A DNA stretch of 64,000 bases from Acidobacteriota bacterium (GCA_031296105.1 JARLGJ010000013.1:1-64000), one strand, 5' to 3'. Positions 286 to 16,290 are shown, counted from the first letter of the stretch. Program-made: numbers and translations. The notes: generated by a model from the letters alone, not told the origin.

Positions 286-1608
286 CTACGCCGCGCGCTT
301 CCGCCGCACATCCACCGCGTACAGCACCCATCCCAGCGCGATCAATCCCGCGGCCACCGCAAGGGCGTTCACCGGGCCAATCTGCTCGTGGCGGCTGCGC
401 ACGGCGCTCACCCCCAGCAGCAGCGCCGGAGGCACGCACACCAGCGCCAGCCCAGCGGCTCCTCCGGGCACGCGGTAGGGCCGCTCCAGCTCCGGCTCGC
501 GCAGGCGCAGCGCAACCAGTGCGGCAAACTCCAAAAGAATACTCAGGCCGGTGAGCACCACGTCCAGGGTCACCGTGCGGTCAAAGCCCAGGCTCATCGC
601 GCATCCCCACAGAATGGAACAGGCCACAATGGCCACCCACGGAGCGCCGCAGCGGTTCTCGCGGGCAAACATCCGTGGCAGCAGCCCATCGCGCGCCATG
701 GCCCACGGCAGCCGCGAGAGCGACAGAACCAGCGCGTTAAAGGTGCTAAAGGCCGCCACCACGCCGGCGGCCGTGATGGCCACACCCAGCGCGCGCCCGC
801 CCAAGGTCTCGGCAATGTTCACCCAGGAGCCCGTCTCCCACGCCCCCTGCGGCACGCCAGCGTGCGCCATGGCGGCCACCGGAATCAGGTAGGTGGCCGT
901 CACCACGGCAACCGAGACGAGCATGGCCCGCTGGTAGCCTTGGCGCGCGTTCTCCACCTCGCCGGCAATCAGGCTGGCGTTGTCCCATCCCATGTAGTTC
1001 CACATAGCAATCAGGATGCCGCCGAACATGTCGCTTTTGCCCAGCGTGGGCGCGGCAACTTGCGCGGCAGAGCCGGCCGTATGGAATCCCAGCCAGGCAA
1101 GCACCGCAAACGGCGCCAGCAACAGCAGCACAAAGCCAATGCTCGATTCGCCCACCGTGCGGGTGCCCAACAGGTTCATCCCCACGCAGGCGGCAATCAT
1201 GGCCGCGCCCAGCACAAGCGGCACCTTCCCGTGCGTCAGGGAGGGCCAAAGATGTCCCAGGCAGGCGGCAAACAGAATGGGATAGACCGCCATGTCGAAG
1301 ATGGAGCCAAGCAGGGTGAGCCAGGCTTCCTGAAAGCCCCAGAAGCCTCCCATGGCGCGCCGCACCCAGATGTAGAAGCCGCCGTTCTCCGGCAGGGCTC
1401 CGGCCATCTCGCCGATCATCATGGCCGTGGGCACGGCCCACAGCAGCGGCGTCAGGCACAGGATAAGGACTGCCCGGGCGTATCCGTTGCCGCCAACAAT
1501 CTCTTCCAGCCCAAAAGGGCCTCCGGCCACCATGGCATAGGTGGAGGCCACCAAGGCCAACAGGCCCAGTTTGCGTGGACGGCTCACCAGGTTGCGGAAA
1601 AAGTCCAT
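286..1608 (-). CDS. APC-family amino acid/polyamine permease
   Basis: A 440-residue integral membrane protein with about 12 hydrophobic segments. The first segment carries the glycine-rich AMVAGGPFGLEEIVGG stretch typical of the unwound TM1 of APC transporters, and MIGEMAGALPENGGFYIWV matches the conserved region that follows TM2. It should import an amino acid or polyamine by proton coupling; the substrate cannot be read from sequence. I chose the ATG at 1608 because the protein becomes family-like there; a GTG at 1659 would add 17 residues with no clear domain value. It lies 130 bases downstream of the secreted-protein gene on the same strand, so co-transcription is possible. The end of the gene is followed by a palindromic repeat. 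Confidence 0.88.
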   Translation of the reverse strand: MDFFRNLVSRPRKLGLLALVASTYAMVAGGPFGLEEIVGGNGYARAVLILCLTPLLWAVPTAMMIGEMAGALPENGGFYIWVRRAMGGFWGFQEAWLTLLGSIFDMAVYPILFAACLGHLWPSLTHGKVPLVLGAAMIAACVGMNLLGTRTVGESSIGFVLLLLAPFAVLAWLGFHTAGSAAQVAAPTLGKSDMFGGILIAMWNYMGWDNASLIAGEVENARQGYQRAMLVSVAVVTATYLIPVAAMAHAGVPQGAWETGSWVNIAETLGGRALGVAITAAGVVAAFSTFNALVLSLSRLPWAMARDGLLPRMFARENRCGAPWVAIVACSILWGCAMSLGFDRTVTLDVVLTGLSILLEFAALVALRLREPELERPYRVPGGAAGLALVCVPPALLLGVSAVRSRHEQIGPVNALAVAAGLIALGWVLYAVDVRRKRAA

Positions 1609-1739
1609 TTGCTGCTTGTTGCACCGCAATCTCTTGGATGCCGTGCCAGTACTGTACACATTTAGGAGCGTCTCGCTCGTTGCTTCGACGCGTTATTCCG
1701 CAACCTGTCAAGCCGCCGTGGCTGCGCGGCGTGTGCAGC

Positions 1740-2732
1740 TTATTTGCACTTGTGTCCCAGGAAAAGGGCGCGGCGCCATAGTGCGCTATCCGTGCACGGG
1801 GTGGCAGCCGGGGTGGCTGCCGGTTCGGCATGGGCCGCCACCGCGGCGCCACCCTCTTCTTCTTCCACGGCGTCGCCCAACTGAATTTCCGCAAAGGAGC
1901 GCAATATGTAGCCGGTAGACGCCGTTTCGCGCACATCGAGCAGCACCACTTCGCCCAGCAGATGTGCGGGGAGCTTCTTCTGGTCGTCGGCCGTAACCTT
2001 CACCGGGTTGGCCGCCTCGATCGCGGCCCCTTTGGGCAGGCGCTCGCTGATGCGGTCAACGGTGTTGAGTTCGGCATCGGTGTATCCGCGGCGAATAAAC
2101 AGATACTCACCCACCTTGGCGCCTTTGTTCGCCCCGTAGTCGAGGTACACAATGCTGCCCGTCCCCAGCAGGCCCAGGGCGTCCTTGGAGCCGAGGATAT
2201 GTCCATTGATGGCGTTGCCCGAAACGTAGGGATTGATTGGATCATCGGTGCCGCGCACGGAGATTTCGGGCTTGGCCTCGAAGGGCACCACAATGTCACC
2301 CGGAACAGCGGCGTCGCAGGAAAAGTCGAAGGAGGCAATGCTGATCTTGCCCGCAATGTTATGCACCGTCACCCAGCCGAGTTCCTGGTAAAGACGCCCC
2401 AGCCGCGCCATTTTCCGGCTGATCTCGGGAGTGAATTCCTCGCGATTGGGATCCTTCGTCTCGCGCAGGATGCTGTAGCGCTCGCCCTCTTTCAGCGTCG
2501 GCCCGGCGATAAACAGCACGGAGCCGCCCGCGAATTCGTCCTCGTGCGGCGCGTCCTTACTGGCCACGATGTGGTTCTGGCGGGAAATCGCGTTGTGCGA
2601 GATGAACCCCGCACAATACTGCTGGCTGGTGCTGGGCGGATTCGACTTGACGGACTTGGCCGGAACACTGAGCGTGCTTTGCGCCCAGAGGCTGCCCGTA
2701 ATCAGCAGGGTAATCGCAATCAATCGTTTCAT
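1740..2732 (-). CDS. Secreted hypothetical protein, FlgT/LysM-type C-terminal fold
   Basis: A 330-residue protein with a Sec signal peptide (MKRLIAITLLITGSLWAQS, cleavage after about residue 17). The ATG at 2732 is preceded by GGGAG at good spacing; an upstream frame to 2837 lacks a signal-like start. The middle region contains repeated small beta motifs such as GSIVYLDYGANKGAKVGEY and GEVVLLDVRETASTGYIL, which resemble the C-terminal domain of FlgT-like and LysM-associated acidobacterial surface proteins. The C-terminus ends in an acidic EEEEGG run and an Ala/Pro-rich tail. It is divergent from aroDE. Role unknown; an envelope location is inferred from the signal peptide. Confidence 0.72.
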   Translation of the reverse strand: MKRLIAITLLITGSLWAQSTLSVPAKSVKSNPPSTSQQYCAGFISHNAISRQNHIVASKDAPHEDEFAGGSVLFIAGPTLKEGERYSILRETKDPNREEFTPEISRKMARLGRLYQELGWVTVHNIAGKISIASFDFSCDAAVPGDIVVPFEAKPEISVRGTDDPINPYVSGNAINGHILGSKDALGLLGTGSIVYLDYGANKGAKVGEYLFIRRGYTDAELNTVDRISERLPKGAAIEAANPVKVTADDQKKLPAHLLGEVVLLDVRETASTGYILRSFAEIQLGDAVEEEEGGAAVAAHAEPAATPAATPCTDSALWRRALFLGHKCK

Positions 2733-2930
2733 TCCGTGCTCCCGGTTCCGCCGCCGCAGCGGACGGTGCAGAGGTGGCATGTGACTTTCCCGGAAGCTAA
2801 CAAAGCGCTGTGTACAGGTCAAGTAACTATGGTCCAACCAGTTAACAGAAAGGGCACGTTCGGACCATTCCCGAAGATTCCATCAGAAAAATGCCTTCCT
2901 CACTTGCAACCTTTCGCTAGCATCATTACC

Positions 2931-4835
2931 ATGTGCGCCATAATGACTGTTGCACCTATGAATTACGCCGCCCGCTCCTTGCGCCTTCGTATACCCCGTA
3001 TCTGTGTCTCGCTGACTGGCAGCGAACCGGCTGAACTGTTCGATCAGGCCGAAGCCGTGCTGCGCGAGAATACGCTGATCGAGTTACGCCTCGACTACCT
3101 GAAGTCCCCTCTGGCGGCGATTCCTAAGATTCGTAGAATCATTGAGATACGCCCGGACGCCATCCTCATCGCCACCTGCCGCCGCACGGTTTCCGGGGGC
3201 AACTTCAAGGGCTCATTGAAGGACGAACTGGACGTGTTGCAGCGTGCCGCCGATGCCGGCGCGCCGGCCTTGGACGTCTCCATTGAGTCGGCCGAGGGCC
3301 TGACCCAGGCAAATTGGGAAGACCTCCGTGCGCGCGCCGCAATCATCCTGAGCAGCCACGACTTCAAGAGCACCAACAACCTGGAAGAAACCTTCGCGCG
3401 CATGCGCGCCTTCCCCGCCGACTTCTACAAAGTGGTCGGCACCGCCACTTCCCTGCACGACAACGTCACCATGACGCGCTTTCTGGAGCAGTATTGCTCG
3501 GAATACCCCATGGTAGGCATGTGCATGGGCGAGCTTGGCATGGTCAGCCGCATTCTGGCCATCAAGGCCGGCGCGGCGTTCACCTTCAGCTCCCCGGAGG
3601 CGGGCAAGGAAACCGCTCCCGGCCAGCCCACCTTTCGCGAGCTGCGCGATTTCTATCGCATTGAGCAGGTGGATGCCATTACGAAGATCTACGGTATCGT
3701 GGGCGACCCGGTCGCGCACTCCATGTCGCCGACGGTGCACAACGTAGCCTTCCGGCGGGAGAACGTCAACGCCGTCTATGTGCCTCTGCGCACCAAAAAG
3801 CTGGACGATTTGCTCTCCACCGTGCGCGACCTGCCGCTGGACGGCATCTCGGTGACCATGCCGCACAAGCAGGCCATTGTGGAGCACCTGGACAACAGCG
3901 ACGTGCTGACCCAGCGCACCGGCGCCTGCAATACCGTGGTGCGCGGCAAGGACGGCCGCCTATTCGGCTTCAACACCGACGTGTACGGCATTGTGGCGGC
4001 CATTGAGCCGCGCGTGAACCTGAAGGAAGCACGCGTGCTTGTGCTGGGCGCGGGCGGCGCGGCCCGCGCGGCGGTCTTTGGACTGCGCGCCAAGGGAGCC
4101 GAGGTCAGCATCCTGAACCGCACTCCGGCCAACGCCCAGGCCCTGGCCAAGCAGGCTGGCGCCAAGGTCATCAAGCGCACCGACCTGCCCAAACTCACGT
4201 TCGACGTCATCTTCAACGCCACGCCCGTGGGCATGGCCGGCGACAAGCACACGCCGCTGGAAGAAAACGAGCTAAACGCCGTCTGGGTCTTCGATTCGGT
4301 GTACAACCCGATTGAAACCAAGCTGATAAAGATGGCCCAGGCCAAGGGCTTGGGAACCATCGTGGGTTCGGAGATGTTTGTGAACCAGGCGGCGCGCCAG
4401 TTCGAGATCTGGACCGGCAAGCCGGCTCCACTGGACAGCATGAGGCAGGTGCTGATGCGCGCCCTGGGCGCCGTCAGCCCCGAGACCGGTTCGCCGATCT
4501 CCACCGTGGTGCAGCCCAAGGCCAAGGTTCTGGCCTCGGCTTCCGCCGCAGCGGAAGCCAGCGAGGCGGCCGCGCCGGAAGCCGCCGAAAAACCAGCAGC
4601 CTCAGCCAAGCCCGAGGCAAAGCACCACGAAGCCAAATCGGCGGCCAAAAAGGCCGTTGCCAAGGCCGTGGTGGCCAAACCGGCGGCAAAGCCCGCCGCC
4701 AAGGCCGCGCCCAAGCCCGAGGCCAAGCCGGTGAAAGCCGCGGCAAAAAAATCTGCACCGAAGCCTGTGGCCAAGAAGGTGGCGGCCAAGCCCAAGCCCG
4801 AGGCCAAGAAGGCTGTGCCCAAAAAGAAGAAATAG
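2931..4835 (+). CDS. aroDE: Bifunctional 3-dehydroquinate dehydratase/shikimate dehydrogenase with H1-like tail
   Basis: 634 residues covering two consecutive shikimate-pathway steps. Residues about 23-245 are a type I dehydroquinase: SSHDF (about 142) carries the catalytic His and FYKVVGTA (about 166) the Schiff-base Lys. Residues about 252-515 are shikimate dehydrogenase: GDPVAHSMSPTVHN binds shikimate, MPHKQ (about 312) holds the catalytic Lys, and VLVLGAGGAARA with NRT form the NADP site. The last ~120 residues are a Lys/Ala/Pro-rich repeat tail (units like AAKPAAK, KPEAK) resembling histone H1 or bacterial nucleoid proteins, not part of either enzyme. In-frame ATGs at 2943 and 2958 are alternative starts. 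Divergent from the secreted protein; a hairpin follows. Confidence 0.95.
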   Translation: MCAIMTVAPMNYAARSLRLRIPRICVSLTGSEPAELFDQAEAVLRENTLIELRLDYLKSPLAAIPKIRRIIEIRPDAILIATCRRTVSGGNFKGSLKDELDVLQRAADAGAPALDVSIESAEGLTQANWEDLRARAAIILSSHDFKSTNNLEETFARMRAFPADFYKVVGTATSLHDNVTMTRFLEQYCSEYPMVGMCMGELGMVSRILAIKAGAAFTFSSPEAGKETAPGQPTFRELRDFYRIEQVDAITKIYGIVGDPVAHSMSPTVHNVAFRRENVNAVYVPLRTKKLDDLLSTVRDLPLDGISVTMPHKQAIVEHLDNSDVLTQRTGACNTVVRGKDGRLFGFNTDVYGIVAAIEPRVNLKEARVLVLGAGGAARAAVFGLRAKGAEVSILNRTPANAQALAKQAGAKVIKRTDLPKLTFDVIFNATPVGMAGDKHTPLEENELNAVWVFDSVYNPIETKLIKMAQAKGLGTIVGSEMFVNQAARQFEIWTGKPAPLDSMRQVLMRALGAVSPETGSPISTVVQPKAKVLASASAAAEASEAAAPEAAEKPAASAKPEAKHHEAKSAAKKAVAKAVVAKPAAKPAAKAAPKPEAKPVKAAAKKSAPKPVAKKVAAKPKPEAKKAVPKKKK

Positions 4836-4856
4836 CCGTAAACGACTGGTTTTACA

Positions 4857-4890
4857 GCAACGCCCCTGTGGGGATCCGCGGGGGCGTTGC
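4857..4890 (+). terminator. Hairpin after aroDE
   Basis: GCAACGCCCC at 4857-4866 pairs with GGGGCGTTGC at 4881-4890, 21 bases after the aroDE stop. There is no T tract, so it may be a Rho-assisted terminator or an mRNA-stabilising hairpin. A near-identical stem occurs at 16423-16449. Confidence 0.55.
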
Positions 4891-5292
4891 TGCCTGCGAA
4901 GCTATCGGGAGCCTCTCGCCCTGGCTGCGGCACCCCAATTCCCGGCAATTGCGGGCAAAAGATGGGTGATTTCAGGTACTTCCAATGGGTTCCAAGTGCC
5001 TGTTTATGCGGCTTTGCGTCGCATTTCCCTTGCCTGCGAAATGCGACGGTTTTGATTGCAAAAATGCCCCATTCAGCCTAAGATTGAGCTGTTCTAAGGA
5101 ACCACGCAGTACCCTTCAGCGGTCGATCGTTCTCACGGAAGAGACCACGTTGTTTCAACAGGCAGCGATTCTTAGGATGGGTATGAAGCACCTCCCGCAA
5201 CCGAACTCCCGCTCTTCTCATTTCCATTAAATCCGGTTCGTTGCTTTTTCAGCGGAGCTCTGCCCAGGAATCCTACGGTTTGGAGAAAGACG
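4891..5292. other. Intergenic region before the GvpL/F gene, one strong hairpin
   Basis: No gene seen in about 400 bases. An 11-bp perfect inverted repeat, CGTCGCATTTC at 5017-5027 and GAAATGCGACG at 5038-5048, is followed by GTTTTGATT and could terminate a plus-strand transcript. The remainder presumably carries the promoter of the downstream gene, but no consensus site stands out. Confidence 0.45.
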
Positions 5293-6027
5293 ATGGCGTG
5301 GTACGCATACTGTCTCAGCGAGCAGGCTAGTTTCCAGCAAGGCCGGGTTCGCCGGCCGTTCCTCATCGAGAGCCTTAAGGGCGTTGGCGGCAATGCCGTC
5401 CGCGGCTTCCCCTGCGGCGAATTCGTGGTCATTGTCAGCGAAATTGGTGATTCGCCTACCTTGACTCAACAATCCGTCATGGAGCACGCGCGTACGGTCA
5501 GCGAATGCTTCAAGCTCGCCACCCTGCTGCCTTTCAAGTTCGGCACCGTCTTTGAAAGCGACGATGCCCTGCGTCAGGCAGTCCGCAACAACAAGAAAAC
5601 ATTCAGCGAATCGATTGCCCGCCTGCGCGGCAAGAGCGAGATGCACATCAAGGTGATGGTGCGCGAAGGCTTCGCCCTGGAGAATGTGCTGGCAATTCCT
5701 CCGCACAAGGCCGGCGGCGAGTACCTGACTCGCTTGAAGGAACAGGCCTCACGCGACCGCGAGCGCCAGTCGCGCGCCCGGGCACTCTCTCTTCAGGTTC
5801 ATAAGTTGTTGAGTCCGTTGCAGGAAGAGGTCAGTTGCAAGAAGGTGGAGTCGGGCATTGTGCTGGATATCGCACACCTGATCGACTCCAACGGCGTAGC
5901 CAAGTATCAGTCGCGCTATTCCAACGCGCTGCACCAGTTCAAGAACGTGGAAATCTCCCTGACCGGGCCTTGGCCGCCTTTCCACTTTATGCCCGGCCCC
6001 AGCAAGGTCCGCACCCTGAACAACTAG
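5293..6027 (+). CDS. GvpL/GvpF-family protein (orphan)
   Basis: 244 residues matching the gas-vesicle GvpL/GvpF family: an N-terminal AWYAYCL strand, the HARTV region, LLPFKFGTVFESDDAL (family pattern 'lPvrFGtvf'), RLRGKSEMHIKV, and a C-terminal LTGPWPPFHF corresponding to the family 'GPWPPYSF' signature. Start ATG at 5293 follows a GGAGA ribosome site. In gas-vesicle clusters these proteins help assemble the vesicle shell, but no gvpA, gvpN or gvpK gene is present here, so this member probably has another role. Downstream lies an NtrC-type regulator after a terminator, so the two are probably separate transcripts. Family call is firm, function open. Confidence 0.85.
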   Translation: MAWYAYCLSEQASFQQGRVRRPFLIESLKGVGGNAVRGFPCGEFVVIVSEIGDSPTLTQQSVMEHARTVSECFKLATLLPFKFGTVFESDDALRQAVRNNKKTFSESIARLRGKSEMHIKVMVREGFALENVLAIPPHKAGGEYLTRLKEQASRDRERQSRARALSLQVHKLLSPLQEEVSCKKVESGIVLDIAHLIDSNGVAKYQSRYSNALHQFKNVEISLTGPWPPFHFMPGPSKVRTLNN

Positions 6028-9379: not shown

Positions 9380-11473
9380 ATGTCTTACTTTGTCCGCACT
9401 GGTTCGATGCGGAAGTTCTGGTTCTATTCAGCACTGATTTCGCTCTTTTGCTTTCCGGTTTTCGCGCAGGACTCGGCCCCCGACACGCTTAGTTTGGAGG
9501 AATTGCTTCAATCCAAGGTTTACAGCGCATCGAAGTACGAGCAGCGCGAGGCGGAAGCTCCCTCGTCGATCAGCGTAATCAGTGCGGAAGACATACGGCG
9601 CAATGGGTATCGCACGCTGTTCGAAGCGCTGCGCAGTGTAACCGGCTTCTACACCAAGAACCATGGAACCTACACCACCATGGGCGTGCGCGGCTTCGCG
9701 CCTCCGGGAGACAGCAACGGACGCCTTCTGCTGCTGATCAACGGACACGCCCTCAATAACAACATCGACGGTTCGGCAACACTGGGCGAGGACTTCCCGG
9801 TGGACATGGACCTGATCGACCGCATCGAGATTGTGCGCGGTCCCAGTTCATCTCTCTACGGCACCAACGCATTTTTCGGCGTGGTGAACGTGGTGATCCG
9901 TCCGGGCAACAACCGCGGCTCGGAAGTCTCCGCGGAAACCGGCAGCCTGGGCACTTACAAGGCCAGCGCGACTTACAATCTGGAGCGCGGCGGGACACAA
10001 GCTCTGGTCAACGGAAGTTACTGGGAAACAGCGGCACCCAGCCACCTGGATAAAGTCCAGAATCCGGCGAATTACAACGGCGCCCATAACCAGTCGCGGC
10101 GCATTTATGCCATGGCCGTCAGCCACGGCTTTACGCTGCAGGCAGCGGCGTCCTCGCTGCAAACACATGACCCCACCTCCACCGAATGGTGCGGACGCTG
10201 CCACCAGACCAACACCCAAAGCACGACTTTCACCGGCTACGCCGACCTGCAATACGAACACAAGGTATGGAAGGATACGCAACTGACGGCGCGTGCCTAC
10301 TATGACACGTACGCGGCGCACGACAAGGTCAACGATCTGCGTAACTGCACGGAATCCCGGTGCCACGGACCGCTTTACAACTATGACTCGGCCCACGGCG
10401 ATCGAGCTGGAGTTGAAATGAAGCTGTCGCGCCGTTTCTATGACCGTCACACGGTCACCATCGGAGCGGACTACCGCGACAACTTCCGCCAGAACCAGCA
10501 GAACTACTATGTAGAGCCTGAGATCTCGACGGCGCGGAACTCCAACTTTGCGTACGCCCGCACCTCGGCCCTGTGGGGCGTGTACGGCGAAGGTGAATTC
10601 CGCCTGACGCCGCGCCTGATCCTGAACGTGGGCCTGCGCGCCGATCACTACAACTACTCGGTGGGCAGCACGGTAAATCCGCGCGGAGCCTTGATCTATT
10701 CGCCGCGCAAATCCACCAACCTGAAGCTGCTCTACGGCTCGGGCTTCCGCGCCCCCAGCTTCGACGAGATGTATTCGGCCACCATGGCCAGTAAGGCCTC
10801 GCCGAACCTGAAGGCGGAGACCATTCGCAGCTATGAAGGCGTGTGGGAGGAGCAACTGGGCCACAACACCAGCCTGAGCGTGGCCGGCTTCTACAACCAC
10901 ATCGGCAGCTACATCGAGCAGCAGACCACGGAAAGCAACGGCATCGATGGCACGGTGTTCCTCAACTCCAGGGCCACGGCCGGCGGAGCCGAGATGGAAG
11001 TGCGCAGCAAGCTCTCCAACGGCGTGGAGGGGCGTTTGAGTTACACCTACCAGAACGCGCACAACGATGACGCCGCGTCGCCGCTGCCTGATTCACCCAA
11101 GCACCTGGCTAAAGCGAAGGTTGCTGCACCGCTGTTCCACGGAATCCTAACTCCCGCGGTAGAGGCCCAGTACATGAGCCGCAGCGCCACCATTTGGCCC
11201 GCCACCGCGCCTTCGGCGCCGCCGGTGCTGATGAACGTGACGCTGTCGAGCAAGCCCTTCTGGGGCGGCTTCTCGGTGTCGGCCAGCGGATACAACCTGG
11301 TGGGCCGATCCATGAGCCCGCCGACCATCGGGTACTTCGAGCAGACGACGACCGTGCCGTCCACCTCTCTGCTGCCCGACGACCGCCGCACCTTCCGCTT
11401 TAAGTTGACGTGGTCCTCCAATGATCGCGCGCGCAACGCGCCGGCTGGCTCCTCCGCGAAAGGAGGCGAGTGA
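9380..11473 (+). CDS. TonB-dependent outer-membrane receptor (BtuB/FepA-like)
   Basis: 697 residues: signal peptide (FWFYSALISLFCFPVFAQ), short linker, plug domain with APSSISVISAEDIRRNGY, LLLINGHALNN and IEIVRGPSSSLYGTNAFFGVVNV, then a beta-barrel with the GSGFRAPSFDEMY region. An energised transporter or a ligand sensor; the substrate is unknown. Two cysteine pairs sit in predicted barrel loops: a CGRCH (a C-x2-C-H pattern) and a CTESRCH. It lacks an N-terminal signalling (STN) or carboxypeptidase-regulatory domain. Start at 9380 has AGGCGG upstream; ATG 9407 gives a more classical signal peptide. One base separates its TGA from the next ATG, and a GGAGG for the next gene lies in its last codons, so it is co-transcribed with the YfiR-like gene. 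Confidence 0.93.
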   Translation: MSYFVRTGSMRKFWFYSALISLFCFPVFAQDSAPDTLSLEELLQSKVYSASKYEQREAEAPSSISVISAEDIRRNGYRTLFEALRSVTGFYTKNHGTYTTMGVRGFAPPGDSNGRLLLLINGHALNNNIDGSATLGEDFPVDMDLIDRIEIVRGPSSSLYGTNAFFGVVNVVIRPGNNRGSEVSAETGSLGTYKASATYNLERGGTQALVNGSYWETAAPSHLDKVQNPANYNGAHNQSRRIYAMAVSHGFTLQAAASSLQTHDPTSTEWCGRCHQTNTQSTTFTGYADLQYEHKVWKDTQLTARAYYDTYAAHDKVNDLRNCTESRCHGPLYNYDSAHGDRAGVEMKLSRRFYDRHTVTIGADYRDNFRQNQQNYYVEPEISTARNSNFAYARTSALWGVYGEGEFRLTPRLILNVGLRADHYNYSVGSTVNPRGALIYSPRKSTNLKLLYGSGFRAPSFDEMYSATMASKASPNLKAETIRSYEGVWEEQLGHNTSLSVAGFYNHIGSYIEQQTTESNGIDGTVFLNSRATAGGAEMEVRSKLSNGVEGRLSYTYQNAHNDDAASPLPDSPKHLAKAKVAAPLFHGILTPAVEAQYMSRSATIWPATAPSAPPVLMNVTLSSKPFWGGFSVSASGYNLVGRSMSPPTIGYFEQTTTVPSTSLLPDDRRTFRFKLTWSSNDRARNAPAGSSAKGGE

Positions 11474-11474
11474 C

Positions 11475-12071
11475 ATGACGGCACTTCACATCACACGCAC
11501 TCTTGCGCGGACGGACATCACCTTGCGTCATGGCAACGTGCATCATGCGCTGGCCGCTGGATTGGCCTGCCTGTTGCTGCTGTGTGCCGCCGCCTGCACG
11601 GCGATGGCGCAAAACGTGGAAGAGCATGACGCCAAGGCCGCCTTCATGCTGAAGGTGCTGAACTTCGTGCAATGGCCGGGCGACTCGCATCGCGACCTGG
11701 TGATTGGCGTGGTGGGATCGGATTCCACGATGGACGCCTTGCAGCGTCAGGCCTACGGCAAGCCGGTGAACGGACGCAACGTGGTGGTGCGCCGCATGGC
11801 CGTCGAGAGCGACCTGCGCGCCTGCCAGATTGTGTTCATCGGCGCCGGCGAGCGCAAGAACATATCTCCAATTCTGGAACGCCTGCGCGGCAGCAACGTG
11901 CTGACCGTGAGCGAGGTGGAAGGTTTCGGCCAGCACGGCGGAGCCATCAATCTTCTGCTCAGCGGTGGACGCATCCGCATGGAGGTGAACCCGCACGCCG
12001 CCGAACGGGCGCACTTGCAGATCAGTTCGCGGCTGCTTTCGCTGGCCACGATCGTCAACGATGGAAATTAA
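11475..12071 (+). CDS. YfiR-family periplasmic protein (DUF4154)
   Basis: 198 residues. A long N-terminal region ends in a signal peptide (AGLACLLLLCAAACTAMAQ), then the YfiR pattern: KAAFMLKVLNFVQWP, LVIGVVG, NGRNVVVRR, CQIVFIG, LTVSEVEGFGQHGGAINLL, and ISSRLLSLA at the end. In Pseudomonas, YfiR binds and inhibits the periplasmic domain of the diguanylate cyclase YfiN until redox or envelope stress releases it. Here the mature part has only one cysteine, so the disulfides that stabilise Pseudomonas YfiR are absent. It is translationally close to the TonB receptor (AAAGGAGG, 1-base gap) and is followed 12 bases later by a chemoreceptor rather than a YfiN homologue. Confidence 0.88.
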   Translation: MTALHITRTLARTDITLRHGNVHHALAAGLACLLLLCAAACTAMAQNVEEHDAKAAFMLKVLNFVQWPGDSHRDLVIGVVGSDSTMDALQRQAYGKPVNGRNVVVRRMAVESDLRACQIVFIGAGERKNISPILERLRGSNVLTVSEVEGFGQHGGAINLLLSGGRIRMEVNPHAAERAHLQISSRLLSLATIVNDGN

Positions 12072-12083
12072 CGAGGCATTGCC

Positions 12084-13964
12084 GTGAACTTCCAGAACCT
12101 ATCGATCACTCACAAACTCCGCATACTGATGTTGGGCGGAAGCGGCGCGGCGCTGGCCCTGGTCTGCATCGTGCTGCTTTGCTTTGAGGTGATCACCGCC
12201 AAGCGCACCACCGCCGAACACCTCTCGACCCTGACGCAGATCGTAAGCGAGAACAGCCAGGCGGCGGTGAGCTTTGGCGACCAGAACGCCGCGCGCGAAG
12301 TGCTGAACTCGCTGCACGCCGAGCCGCACATCACCGCAGCCTGCATTTTCGATAAGCAGGGCCGCGCCTTCGTCACCTACGCGCGCAACGGCGAGCAGGC
12401 ACAGACGCCAGCCCTGCGCGGCACCGGAACCTACTTCGAGTCCGGACACCTGATGCAGTACCTGCCCATGGTGCTGAACGGCGAGCAGATCGGCACGGTG
12501 TACGTCGAATCCGACAGCGAGGAGATTACGGAGCGGTACCGCCGCTACGCGATGATCGCGGCGCTGGTGCTGGTTGCCTCTTCGCTTGTTTCCTTCTTTG
12601 TAGTGGAGCGCTTCCGCAAGACGATTACCGGGCCGCTGAAGGAGTTGATTGCCATCTCGCGCGCCATCGGCGAATCCGGCGACGTGGAGCACGAGATCGA
12701 CGAGAGCCGGCAGGATGAGCTGGGCGACCTGGCGCGCTCGTTCGCCAACATGATCGCCTACCTGAAGGAAATGGCGTCGGTCTCCGAGGACATTGCCCAA
12801 GGCAACCTGGCAGTGAAGGTCGAGCCGCGCTCCGAGCGGGACGTGCTGGGCAAGGCCTTTGCGGCGATGACCGGCGGGTTGGACGCGATGGTCAGCAACG
12901 TGCGCGACGCTGCCTCGCAGGTGGCCGCCGGCTCCAGCCAGGTGGCGGATGCCTCCGAGAACAGCGCCAAGGTGGGCACACAATCGGCCGCCGCCATCGA
13001 CGAAGTAACCAGCACCATGCACGAGATGAGCATCAACGTGCAGAACGTGGTGAAGAACACGCAGATGCAGGCGGCCAGCGTGAGCCAGACGTCGGCCTCC
13101 ATCGATGAGATGGTGGCCAGCATCCAGCGCGTGGCCGACACCGCAAAACTGCTGGTGGAGATCTCCAGCCGCTCGCGCAGTGAAGTGCAAAGCGGCATCA
13201 CCACCATGGAGAAGACCACCAACGGCCTGACGCGCATCAACAACTCCATTGGTTCGTCGGCCGGCATCATCGCCGAACTCGGTGAGCGCGCCCACAACAT
13301 CGGCAAGATCATCGAGGTGATCGACGACATTGCCGACCAGACCAACCTGCTGGCCTTGAACGCCGCGATTGAAGCCGCCAGGGCCGGCGAGCACGGACTG
13401 GGCTTTGCCGTGGTGGCCGACGAAGTACGCAAACTGGCCGAGAAGTCCGCGAATTCCACCAAGGAGATCAGCGAACTGGTCAGCGGCATCCAGAACGAAG
13501 TGCGGCGCGCGGTGGAGAACATGGAGCAGAGTACGCAGATCGTCAACGAGGGGCTGACCCTGGGCGACGAACTAAGCACGGCGCTGCGCAAAATTTCCGA
13601 TGTCTCCACCGAGGTCTTCAAGTTCTCGCAGGAGATTGGCGCGGCAACCAACGAACAGTCGCACGGCTCGTCGCAGATTGCCAAGGCCACCACGCAACTG
13701 AATGAGATCACGCACGAGATCTCATCGTCGGTGGAGGAGCAGGCCAGCGGCGCACAGGCCGTGGTGAGGGCCATGGAGCGCATGCGCGAGCTGGTGCAGC
13801 AGTCCACCACCAGTGCCATGGAGCTGGCCGCCAACGCCGAGCAGATGTCCAAGATGGCGCGGTCGATGCTGGAGTCGATGGACCGCTTCACCCTGGCGGA
13901 GCGCCGCAAGGAGATGATGCGGGAGCGCACCCCCTTCGCGCTGGAGGGCGTCAGTAAGAATTAA
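12084..13964 (+). CDS. Methyl-accepting chemotaxis protein with CHASE8-like periplasmic domain
   Basis: 626 residues, GTG start with GAGG 7 bases upstream. TM1 about 12-34, periplasmic domain 35-150, TM2 about 152-172, HAMP about 173-225, a second HAMP-like segment ([12 protein letters not shown] onward), then a long coiled-coil signalling domain with the kinase-contact hairpin ([34 protein letters not shown]). The periplasmic part has the features of the CHASE8-type domain of YfiN ([30 protein letters not shown]), which fits control by the upstream YfiR-like protein. Output is expected through CheA/CheW, none of which are in this window. Last gene of the TonB-YfiR operon. CHASE8 assignment is by eye. 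Confidence 0.9.
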
Positions 13965-14400
13965 ACGATTCCAGCCAAGGTTCCGGCCGCGGGCAACAGA
14001 GGGTTGCACCGCGGTCCCCTCTAACAAGAGGGGATCGGACCGCATGGCACCTTAGCGCCCCACACGTTTGACTCTGCACACAAGTAACTTGATGGGAACA
14101 ATCGCGCGAAGTAACGTCGTGATGCATTTTTCGTACAAGTCCTACTGACGATCACCGGTCGCTGACCTGGTTTCGCAACTGGGCAGTAACCGTTGCGTGT
14201 TTCCTGTGTTTCGCGGATTGCAGCGAAAGGCCTCGGCGTCTGCTTTTGCCTGAGGGCCGTCTTCCCGCCAGGGGAGAGCACTCGCGTACGGGCCGTCGGC
14301 CAGGCGTAGCCGTTAGATACAAGTTGATCAATCCCCAAGAAAGATAAGCTTGGCAAAAGGGGCATGATATTTGCCGCTTTGCGAGCTGCTTACTTACCCT
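13965..14400. other. 436-bp gap between the two chemoreceptor genes
   Basis: No gene seen. A stem at 14011-14043 (CCCCTCT/AGAGGGG core with outer GCGGT/ACCGC arms) follows the first chemoreceptor and may end its transcript. The rest, from about 14150, is rich in short complementary segments and could hold the promoter and a structured leader for the second chemoreceptor. I looked for a c-di-GMP (GEMM) aptamer signature and did not find one. Confidence 0.4.
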
Positions 14401-16290
14401 GTGAAATTGCGCGATATTCCGATTCTAAAGAAGCTCCAGTTCCTGGCGATGGGCGGCATCACGCTATCGCTGATTCTGTCCAGCGCGGCAATTTTCACCA
14501 TCGACATCATCAACACCCGGCGCGCTGACAGCAAACACATTCTCTCCCTGGCGCAGATCACAAGCCAAGCCGGGGAAGCCGCCGTGAGCAGCGGCAATCC
14601 GGACGCGGCGCGCCAGGCATTGACGATGCTGCGGCCGGAGCCGAACCTGGTGCTTGCCTGCCTCTACGACCAGCATGGCCGGCCGCTGGCTACCTATGCC
14701 GGCGACCACAATTTCCTGACGGCTCCGCCCCTTCGCGGCATGGGCACCTATAACGAATCCGGCATGTTGATGGATTACGCGCCGGTGATGCACGCCGGCG
14801 AGCAGATCGGCGTGGTGTGCGTTGTGCTCAACAGTTCCGACATGACGGGCCGCTTTGCCGTGTATGGCGTGGTGATTCTTCTGGTTTATATCGTCTCCTG
14901 GCTCCTTGCCAAACTGGCGGTGAACCGGGCCCGTCATTCGATCACCGATCCGCTGATGCAGTTAATTGAAGCTTCCCGGGCCATTGGCGGCACCGGCGAC
15001 CTGGAGCATGACATCGATGTAGAGCGTAAGGATGAGCTAGGAGAATTGGCACGCTCCGTGGCTGGCTTGATTGCCTATGTACGGGAGATGGCTGCGTTGT
15101 CGGCGGCCATTGACAATGGCAACCTGGCGGTAAAGGTCACACCGCGCTCCGAGCACGACATTCTGGGCATCGCCTTTGCCAACATGAGCCGCGGGCTCAG
15201 CATTGTTGTAAGCCGGGTGCGCGACGCCGCCTGTGAAATTGCGTCCGGCTCCAGCCAACTGGCCGACACCAGCGTTGCCGCCTCCAAAGTGGCAACGCAA
15301 TCCGCTTCCGGCATCGACGAAGTGGCCAATACCATGCACGAGATGAGCATCAACGTGCGTAACGTGGCCAAGAACACGCAGGCCCAGGCCGCCAACGTTG
15401 GCCAAACGTCCGCCTCCATCGACCAGATCGTAACGAGCATTCAGCGAGTGGCCACGACGGCGCAAACGCTGGTGGAGATTTCCAACCGCTCGCGCCAGGA
15501 GGTACAGAGCGGCGTTGCCGCCATGGAAAAGACGTCCAGCAGCCTGACCGGCATTAACAACTCGATGAGTTCCTCGGCACACGTCATCGCCGATCTCGGC
15601 GACCGGGCGCACAATATCGGCAAGATCGTCGAAGTCATCGATGACATTGCCGACCAGACCAATCTGCTGGCGCTCAATGCGGCCATTGAAGCCGCCCGCG
15701 CCGGCGAGCATGGCATGGGATTTGCCGTGGTTGCCGACGAGGTGCGCAAGCTGGCGGAAAAGTCTGCCGCCTCGACCAAGGAAATTCGCGAGCTGGTCAC
15801 CGCCATTCAGAACGAAGCCGGCAAGGCGGTTGAAAACATGGAGAGGAACACCTTGAGCGTCGAGCAGAGCATGAACCTGGGCAATGAGCTGAGCCTGGCA
15901 CTGCAGAAGATTTCGGCGGCCACAACCGAGGTCTTCCGTTTCGCCCAGGAGATCGGCGCAGCCACCACCGAGCAGGCCCACGGCTCGCACCAGATTGCGT
16001 TGGCGACGACCCGTCTGAACCAGATCACGCAGGAAATTGCATCGTCCATTGAGGAGCAGGCGCAAGGAGCGCAGGCAGTGGCCACGACGATGGAACGCAT
16101 GCGCGACATCGTGCAGCAGTCCAGTTCCGGCTCTACCGAACTGGCGGCCAGCGCCGAACAGATGTCGCGAATGTCCGGCTTGCTGCTGGGCCAAATGAAG
16201 CGCTTCACGGTGGCCGAGCACGCTGCCGAGAGGCCGCTGCTGCAACTGCCTGGGGGCGCGGACCTCGCCCTGTCCAGCGTGCGCCATTAG
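14401..16290 (+). CDS. Methyl-accepting chemotaxis protein, paralogue of the 12084 gene
   Basis: 629 residues with the same layout as the previous receptor: TM1, a CHASE8-like periplasmic domain ([31 protein letters not shown]), TM2, two HAMP-like segments and a signalling coiled coil with [18 protein letters not shown] and [18 protein letters not shown] 14401 is chosen because the N-terminus then aligns without gaps to the paralogue ([12 protein letters not shown] against [12 protein letters not shown]); a TTG at 14371 would add ten residues. The pair looks like an old tandem duplication: similar throughout, most alike in the cytoplasmic part and more diverged in the periplasm, so the two may sense different ligands or partners. 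Its TAG stop is formed by the end of a palindromic repeat. Confidence 0.9.

Follow-up and report, generated by a model that had tools for sequence, protein, structure and literature searches.

The analysed stretch (the window; 64,000 nucleotides of an Acidobacteriota bacterium, GCA_031296105.1, JARLGJ010000013.1:1-64000) carried three closely packed genes, for a TonB-dependent receptor (TBDR), a YfiR-like periplasmic protein and a chemoreceptor (MCP1), followed by a paralogous chemoreceptor gene (MCP2); coordinates are given in Table 1. The TBDR stop codon (11471-11473) was separated by 1 base from the ATG of the YfiR gene (11475), and the stop codon of the latter (ending at 12071) by 12 bases from the GTG of MCP1 (12084), as had been given, for the same three genes, in an earlier sequence-only reading; the trio is presumably transcribed as an operon. 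MCP2, absent from that reading, started 406 bases past MCP1 and had no YfiR of its own. All four genes were intact long open reading frames, tightly spaced within the trio. In the genome (3.45 Mb, 74 contigs) a single YfiR and two CHASE8 domains (those of MCP1 and MCP2) were found, all at this locus.

Table 1: Features of the locus, counted from the first nucleotide of the window.
Feature	Coordinates	Strand	Basis
TonB-dependent receptor (TBDR; plug and barrel), first gene of the putative operon	9380..11473	+	ORF call, Pfam
YfiR/HmsC-like periplasmic protein (DUF4154), 198 aa, N-terminal signal stretch	11475..12071	+	Pfam, PDB sequence match, fold
YfiR C117, aligned with P. aeruginosa C110; G78 stands at the position of the partner, C71	11823..11825	+	alignment
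YfiR M169, at the P. aeruginosa F162 position (centre of the proposed YfiN-binding patch)	11979..11981	+	alignment; PMC3375315
MCP1, CHASE8-HAMP-MCP chemoreceptor, 626 aa	12084..13964	+	ORF call, Pfam
CHASE8 periplasmic sensor domain of MCP1	12201..12506	+	Pfam; predicted PAS/Cache-like fold
MCP1 counterpart (10 residues) of the YfiN AAVVF motif, intact	12252..12281	+	alignment; PMC3375315
HAMP domain of MCP1; likeness to the che-cluster receptor begins about here	12612..12767	+	Pfam, alignment, tree
MCP2, paralogous CHASE8-HAMP-MCP	14371..16290	+	Pfam, sequence comparison
MCP2 degenerated YfiR-binding-type motif (10 residues; Ser for Phe, neither N nor D kept)	14569..14598	+	alignment

The TBDR was matched by Plug (75 bits) and by the TonB_dep_Rec barrel (135 bits), so that the upstream gene is indeed a TonB receptor; these were its only Pfam matches, and no STN signalling domain was found among them. 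Its relatives, 34-39% identical, stand first in operons with YfiR. Two segments of the barrel domain contained cysteines, CGRCH (residues 271-275; CxxCH is the c-type haem motif) and CTESRCH (residues 323-329); motifs of this type were present in none of the 102 closest TBDRs and may form a metal, haem or disulfide site of the ligand loops.

The YfiR assignment was confirmed by profile (DUF4154, PF13689; 141 bits, cut-off 24.9) and by predicted fold (AlphaFold2, pLDDT 93; Foldseek to the solved YfiR 4zhu/4yn7, TM 0.82); solved YfiR in the PDB was also matched by sequence, and the next-nearest solved folds were those of substrate-binding proteins. The mature protein contained one cysteine, C117, the remaining cysteines of the reading frame lying within the N-terminal hydrophobic (signal) stretch. 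Both pairs of P. aeruginosa YfiR, C71-C110 and C145-C152, were thus absent; with C117 left without a partner and no C145-C152 pair, disulfide control of the P. aeruginosa type is impossible here, as the sequence-only reading had supposed. The absence is real, but by the alignments it is ordinary in the group: 16 of 61 aligned YfiRs likewise had a single cysteine, and the C145-C152 pair matched none of the commonly held cysteine columns of the 61. The C117 column was an invariant Cys across 49 sampled YfiRs, the C71 column was G in 14 of the 49, and since only the C71 and C110 columns are commonly Cys, the former being often G, the pairs do not define the family. The single cysteine as the mark of a special control mode was dropped for the same reason, many relatives sharing it.

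P. aeruginosa YfiR targets YfiN at its periplasmic PAS-type (CHASE8) domain, through the AAVVF motif of the latter; the proposed binding partner of this motif is a patch on YfiR with F162 at its centre (PMC3375315). The periplasmic part of MCP1, formerly described as CHASE8-like, was scored as CHASE8 (PF17152) at 87.1 bits over residues 40-141, against a cut-off of 27; no dCache or 4HB match, the outcome that was to count against this assignment, was obtained with Pfam, and the assignment stands. In the model the domain had a PAS/Cache-like fold and two long helices, of which the second continued into HAMP. MCP2 scored 46.7 bits at the same cut-off. The motif reads AAVSF in MCP1 and AAVSS in MCP2; across 47 CHASE8 domains its Phe was found in 46, its Asp in 46 and its Asn in 45, while MCP2 alone had Ser in place of Phe and lacked the Asn and the Asp as well. 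MCP2 therefore probably no longer answers to YfiR. On the YfiR side, the F162 column held F in 43 of 49 aligned YfiRs and M only in the protein of this locus; M169 might weaken or change the contact.

The module was then traced in other genomes. At the YfiR loci of relatives a CHASE8 protein was next in almost all cases. CHASE8 was present in 172 of 399 genomes of a class-wide sample; YfiR lay directly upstream of 88 of 105 same-class CHASE8 genes, and both TBDR and YfiR were seen at 59 of the 105 in the short stretches around the loci. From a sample seeded with the TBDR, in which each GTDB species was represented by one genome, the 79 nearest TBDRs were taken. Their hosts were Acidobacteriota, Nitrospirota, delta-, beta- and gammaproteobacteria and Verrucomicrobia, and in 50 cases YfiR lay no more than 260 bases downstream (median gap 6). 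The same order was found on alphaproteobacterial and gammaproteobacterial plasmids (Sphingobium, Pseudoalteromonas), with kinase-type or EAL-annotated output. Two further phylum samples, labelled after their seed loci as those of Geomonas and of Gallionellaceae, had YfiR upstream of 78 of 96 CHASE8 genes; TBDR was rarely seen there, in stretches mostly too short to show it. This adjacency, conserved across phyla, marks the trio as a unit rather than a chance packing.

When the samples were pooled (partly overlapping and biased by their seeds), YfiR was directly upstream of 214 of 257 other CHASE8 genes, whatever the output. A kinase motif was found in 188 and GGDEF in 34 of the 257, of which 224 showed 300 or more residues of output; an MCP domain was found in none, with a profile that recovers MCP1 and MCP2 at E below 1e-110, and MCP output is therefore rare. 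Of the expected conservation of the trio, the TBDR-YfiR-CHASE8 module has stood and its MCP output has not. Apparent CHASE8-MCPs elsewhere were discarded: the one at L343/L380, picked by a loose motif match, proved not to be an MCP when the profile for that domain was applied and the response regulator next to it was considered, and G432 (L216) and G640 (L217), picked by alignment length, had no CHASE8 by Pfam.

Several loci deserve separate record. One TBDR-YfiR-CHASE8 operon (L032, G007:C35, 4733-5887, - strand) ends in REC and Hpt without a kinase core. A verrucomicrobial one (L244, 5005-6276, + strand) has, about 530 bases upstream and on the same strand, an MCP gene of 423 aa with the MCPsignal domain only. 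Close TBDR relatives at L239, L242, L249, L251, L270, L287 and others, many of them from Nitrospirota, had no YfiR match downstream; at L251, L246, L278 and L288 a CHASE8 gene was present despite the missing match, so that a divergent YfiR may lie between. L049 and L055, of the same family, are TBDR-YfiR pairs, no CHASE8 gene being found in the stretch. In another family of the phylum (L216, G432:C16:2500-10500; 529-5555, - strand) a separate operon encodes a small periplasmic protein, an MCP and a hybrid CheA; the small protein (ABC_sub_bind, weak DUF4154 match) comes directly before the MCP, which has no CHASE8 match.

Maltose-, ribose- and autoinducer-binding proteins present their ligands to receptors of the Tar, Trg or LuxPQ type. 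Instead of being a repressor, YfiR could likewise bind the TBDR substrate in the periplasm and present the imported ligand to CHASE8; this is the strongest rival to a relay through YfiR, and we consider it unlikely. The folds nearest to its model after YfiR itself (R. marinus substrate-binding protein, 6k1x and 5z6v; Vibrio and Streptococcus proteins, 3lkv and 3lft) agree with a binding function, as does the position of the ABC_sub_bind-like protein of L216 before an MCP and a hybrid CheA. However, YfiR, at about 150 aa, has a single lobe and lacks the cleft between two lobes that marks the large substrate-binding proteins, the hydrophobic CHASE8 motif is conserved as expected of a protein contact, and the known YfiR is a repressor (PMC3375315). 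It is less probable still that MCP1 is an ordinary chemoreceptor whose own CHASE8 senses a small molecule, the TBDR and YfiR importing or buffering the same substrate: the predicted fold does resemble ligand-binding PAS/Cache domains, e.g., that of CitA, but the frequent company of YfiR in the pooled sample, irrespective of output, speaks against it, and so does a nearly invariant equivalent of AAVVF, a constraint not called for by a free ligand pocket.

The cytoplasmic part of MCP1 consisted of HAMP (PF00672) and MCPsignal (PF00015; 171 bits) with an intact hairpin tip (21 residues). Eleven MCPs were found in the genome, together with seven CheW-domain matches, of which three were CheA-type proteins; flagellin and MotAB are encoded as well, with another CheA. 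MCP1, MCP2 and the receptor of a che cluster on another contig (C27:12569-13903; CHASE3-like sensor) form one signalling class, with 69-84% mutual identity and a longer C-terminal part, to which the other eight MCPs are at most 35% identical. The signalling domain of MCP1 is 84% identical to that of the C27 receptor; the likeness sets in near the end of TM2, takes in HAMP and extends to residue 611. At the DNA level the shared part, which begins near nucleotide 577 of the gene, is 81% identical. The order of the C27 cluster is MCP-cheW-cheR-cheA-cheB-cheY-cheX, and it is conserved in other genera of the family. By this membership of the signalling class, the CheA of C27 is the most likely partner of MCP1; since the che cluster sits on another contig, the pairing rests on similarity.

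MCP2 is 43% identical to MCP1 in CHASE8 and 54-74% in the cytoplasmic part. In the tree of the HAMP-signalling part MCP1 and MCP2 were sisters (94/98) within the che-cluster receptors of the family and outside the genus's own clade; in the CHASE8 tree they were again sisters (100/100), on a long branch and with no close kin in the class. This sisterhood in both parts is explained if a YfiR-type CHASE8 was joined once to a che-cluster receptor and the resulting gene was then duplicated in tandem; MCP2 would have lost its motif thereafter. A recent fusion giving MCP1 inside this species was rejected, because its backbone branches outside the genus clade (clade support 95/97). Comparison of the MCP1 N-terminus with plasmids gave distant matches only. 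Three other species of the genus had the che-cluster receptor and showed no YfiR and no CHASE8-MCP match; in a synteny comparison for an empty site, the flanking gene had no match in the genus at E 1e-60. With no MCP output elsewhere in the sample and genus relatives without YfiR, selection for exactly this trio rests on one genome.

The last point, taken with the loss of the MCP2 motif, M169 of YfiR and the absence of the locus from the other species of the genus, would also suit a decaying or functionless chimera, in which an MCP replaced the kinase and the operon was not kept for signalling. Such a state is highly improbable in view of the four intact reading frames, the tight spacing of the trio, the motif and full HAMP and signalling domain kept by MCP1, and an MCP1-MCP2 branch that, judging from the trees, is not young.

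The locus is best read, with a probability of about 0.6, as a surface-signalling operon of the TBDR-YfiR-CHASE8 type with chemoreceptor output, YfiR carrying the state of the TBDR to MCP1 and hence to CheA. The TBDR, whether empty, ligand-loaded or TonB-energised, would capture or release YfiR at the outer membrane, a part played in YfiBNR by YfiB; free YfiR would dock on the MCP1 CHASE8 dimer at its AAVSF patch, holding one signalling state. Release of YfiR would shift CHASE8, TM2, HAMP and the signalling hairpin, and the shifted hairpin would change the CheA encoded with CheW, CheR, CheB, CheY and CheX on C27. The outcome would be taxis, attractive or repellent, in response to the TBDR substrate, which would not be imported into the cytoplasm for this. 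Against this mechanism stands a TBDR without a known signalling domain. With the module fused to a receptor of the che-cluster type, an outer-membrane receptor may steer movement.

In wider terms, TBDR-YfiR-CHASE8 could be a widespread, undescribed envelope-spanning class in which a TBDR replaces YfiB and the output is exchangeable, here steering a CheA pathway as the first direct protein relay from an outer-membrane TonB receptor to chemotaxis; we hold this possible, at somewhat less than even odds. Should YfiR, in several phyla, usually have a TBDR as its outer-membrane partner, an input from the outer membrane would have gone unrecognised for many histidine kinases and GGDEF proteins of soil and groundwater bacteria. 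A chemoreceptor as output offers a fast, quantitative readout (CheA activity, taxis) for the idea of a TBDR-YfiR partnership, with MCP2, which lacks the contact residue, as a natural negative control.

YfiB is an OmpA/Pal-like outer-membrane lipoprotein and, to our knowledge, work on YfiR systems has dealt almost exclusively with YfiB and c-di-GMP. The system of P. aeruginosa (TpbB/YfiN, YfiR, YfiB) shares with the present one the YfiR family and fold, followed by a CHASE8-HAMP transducer with an AAVVF-type motif. It differs in its YfiB gene, none being present among the reading frames of this operon, where the TBDR takes that place; in its two YfiR disulfide pairs; and in its output, which is GGDEF (diguanylate cyclase) as against MCPsignal. 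The designation YfiBNR-like thus holds for YfiR and its CHASE8 partner, not for YfiB or a diguanylate cyclase. Divergent YfiR-YfiN[PAS] systems with HK, HPT, GGDEF-EAL and MCP outputs were described in silico by Malone et al. 2012 (PMC3375315), who also aligned an acidobacterial YfiR-YfiN pair; the MCP outputs take one passing clause, and the main text names no organism for them. The YfiR-CHASE8 core with exchanged output is common to both descriptions, and the MCP-output part is therefore not new; TonB receptors are not mentioned in the text of that paper (PMC3375315). A search of the open-access literature gave no TBDR-YfiR-kinase or TBDR-YfiR-MCP operon and no earlier description of a TBDR as the conserved first gene, which is weak evidence of absence. 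The TBDR-YfiR-CHASE8-HK/GGDEF operons of Acidobacteriota, Nitrospirota, delta- and betaproteobacteria and Verrucomicrobia have the same gene order and short gaps, with kinase, GGDEF or REC-Hpt and, in the sample, never MCP as output. In cell-surface signalling of the FecA type, a TonB-dependent transducer with an STN domain acts with a FecR-type anti-sigma factor; an outer-membrane TonB sensor and a periplasmic step are the common ground, whereas here the TBDR has no STN and the operon no sigma/anti-sigma pair, a soluble YfiR and a chemoreceptor being found instead. The che-cluster receptor of C27 is kin to MCP1 in HAMP and signalling domain and differs from it in the sensor, which is CHASE3-like there and CHASE8 in MCP1.
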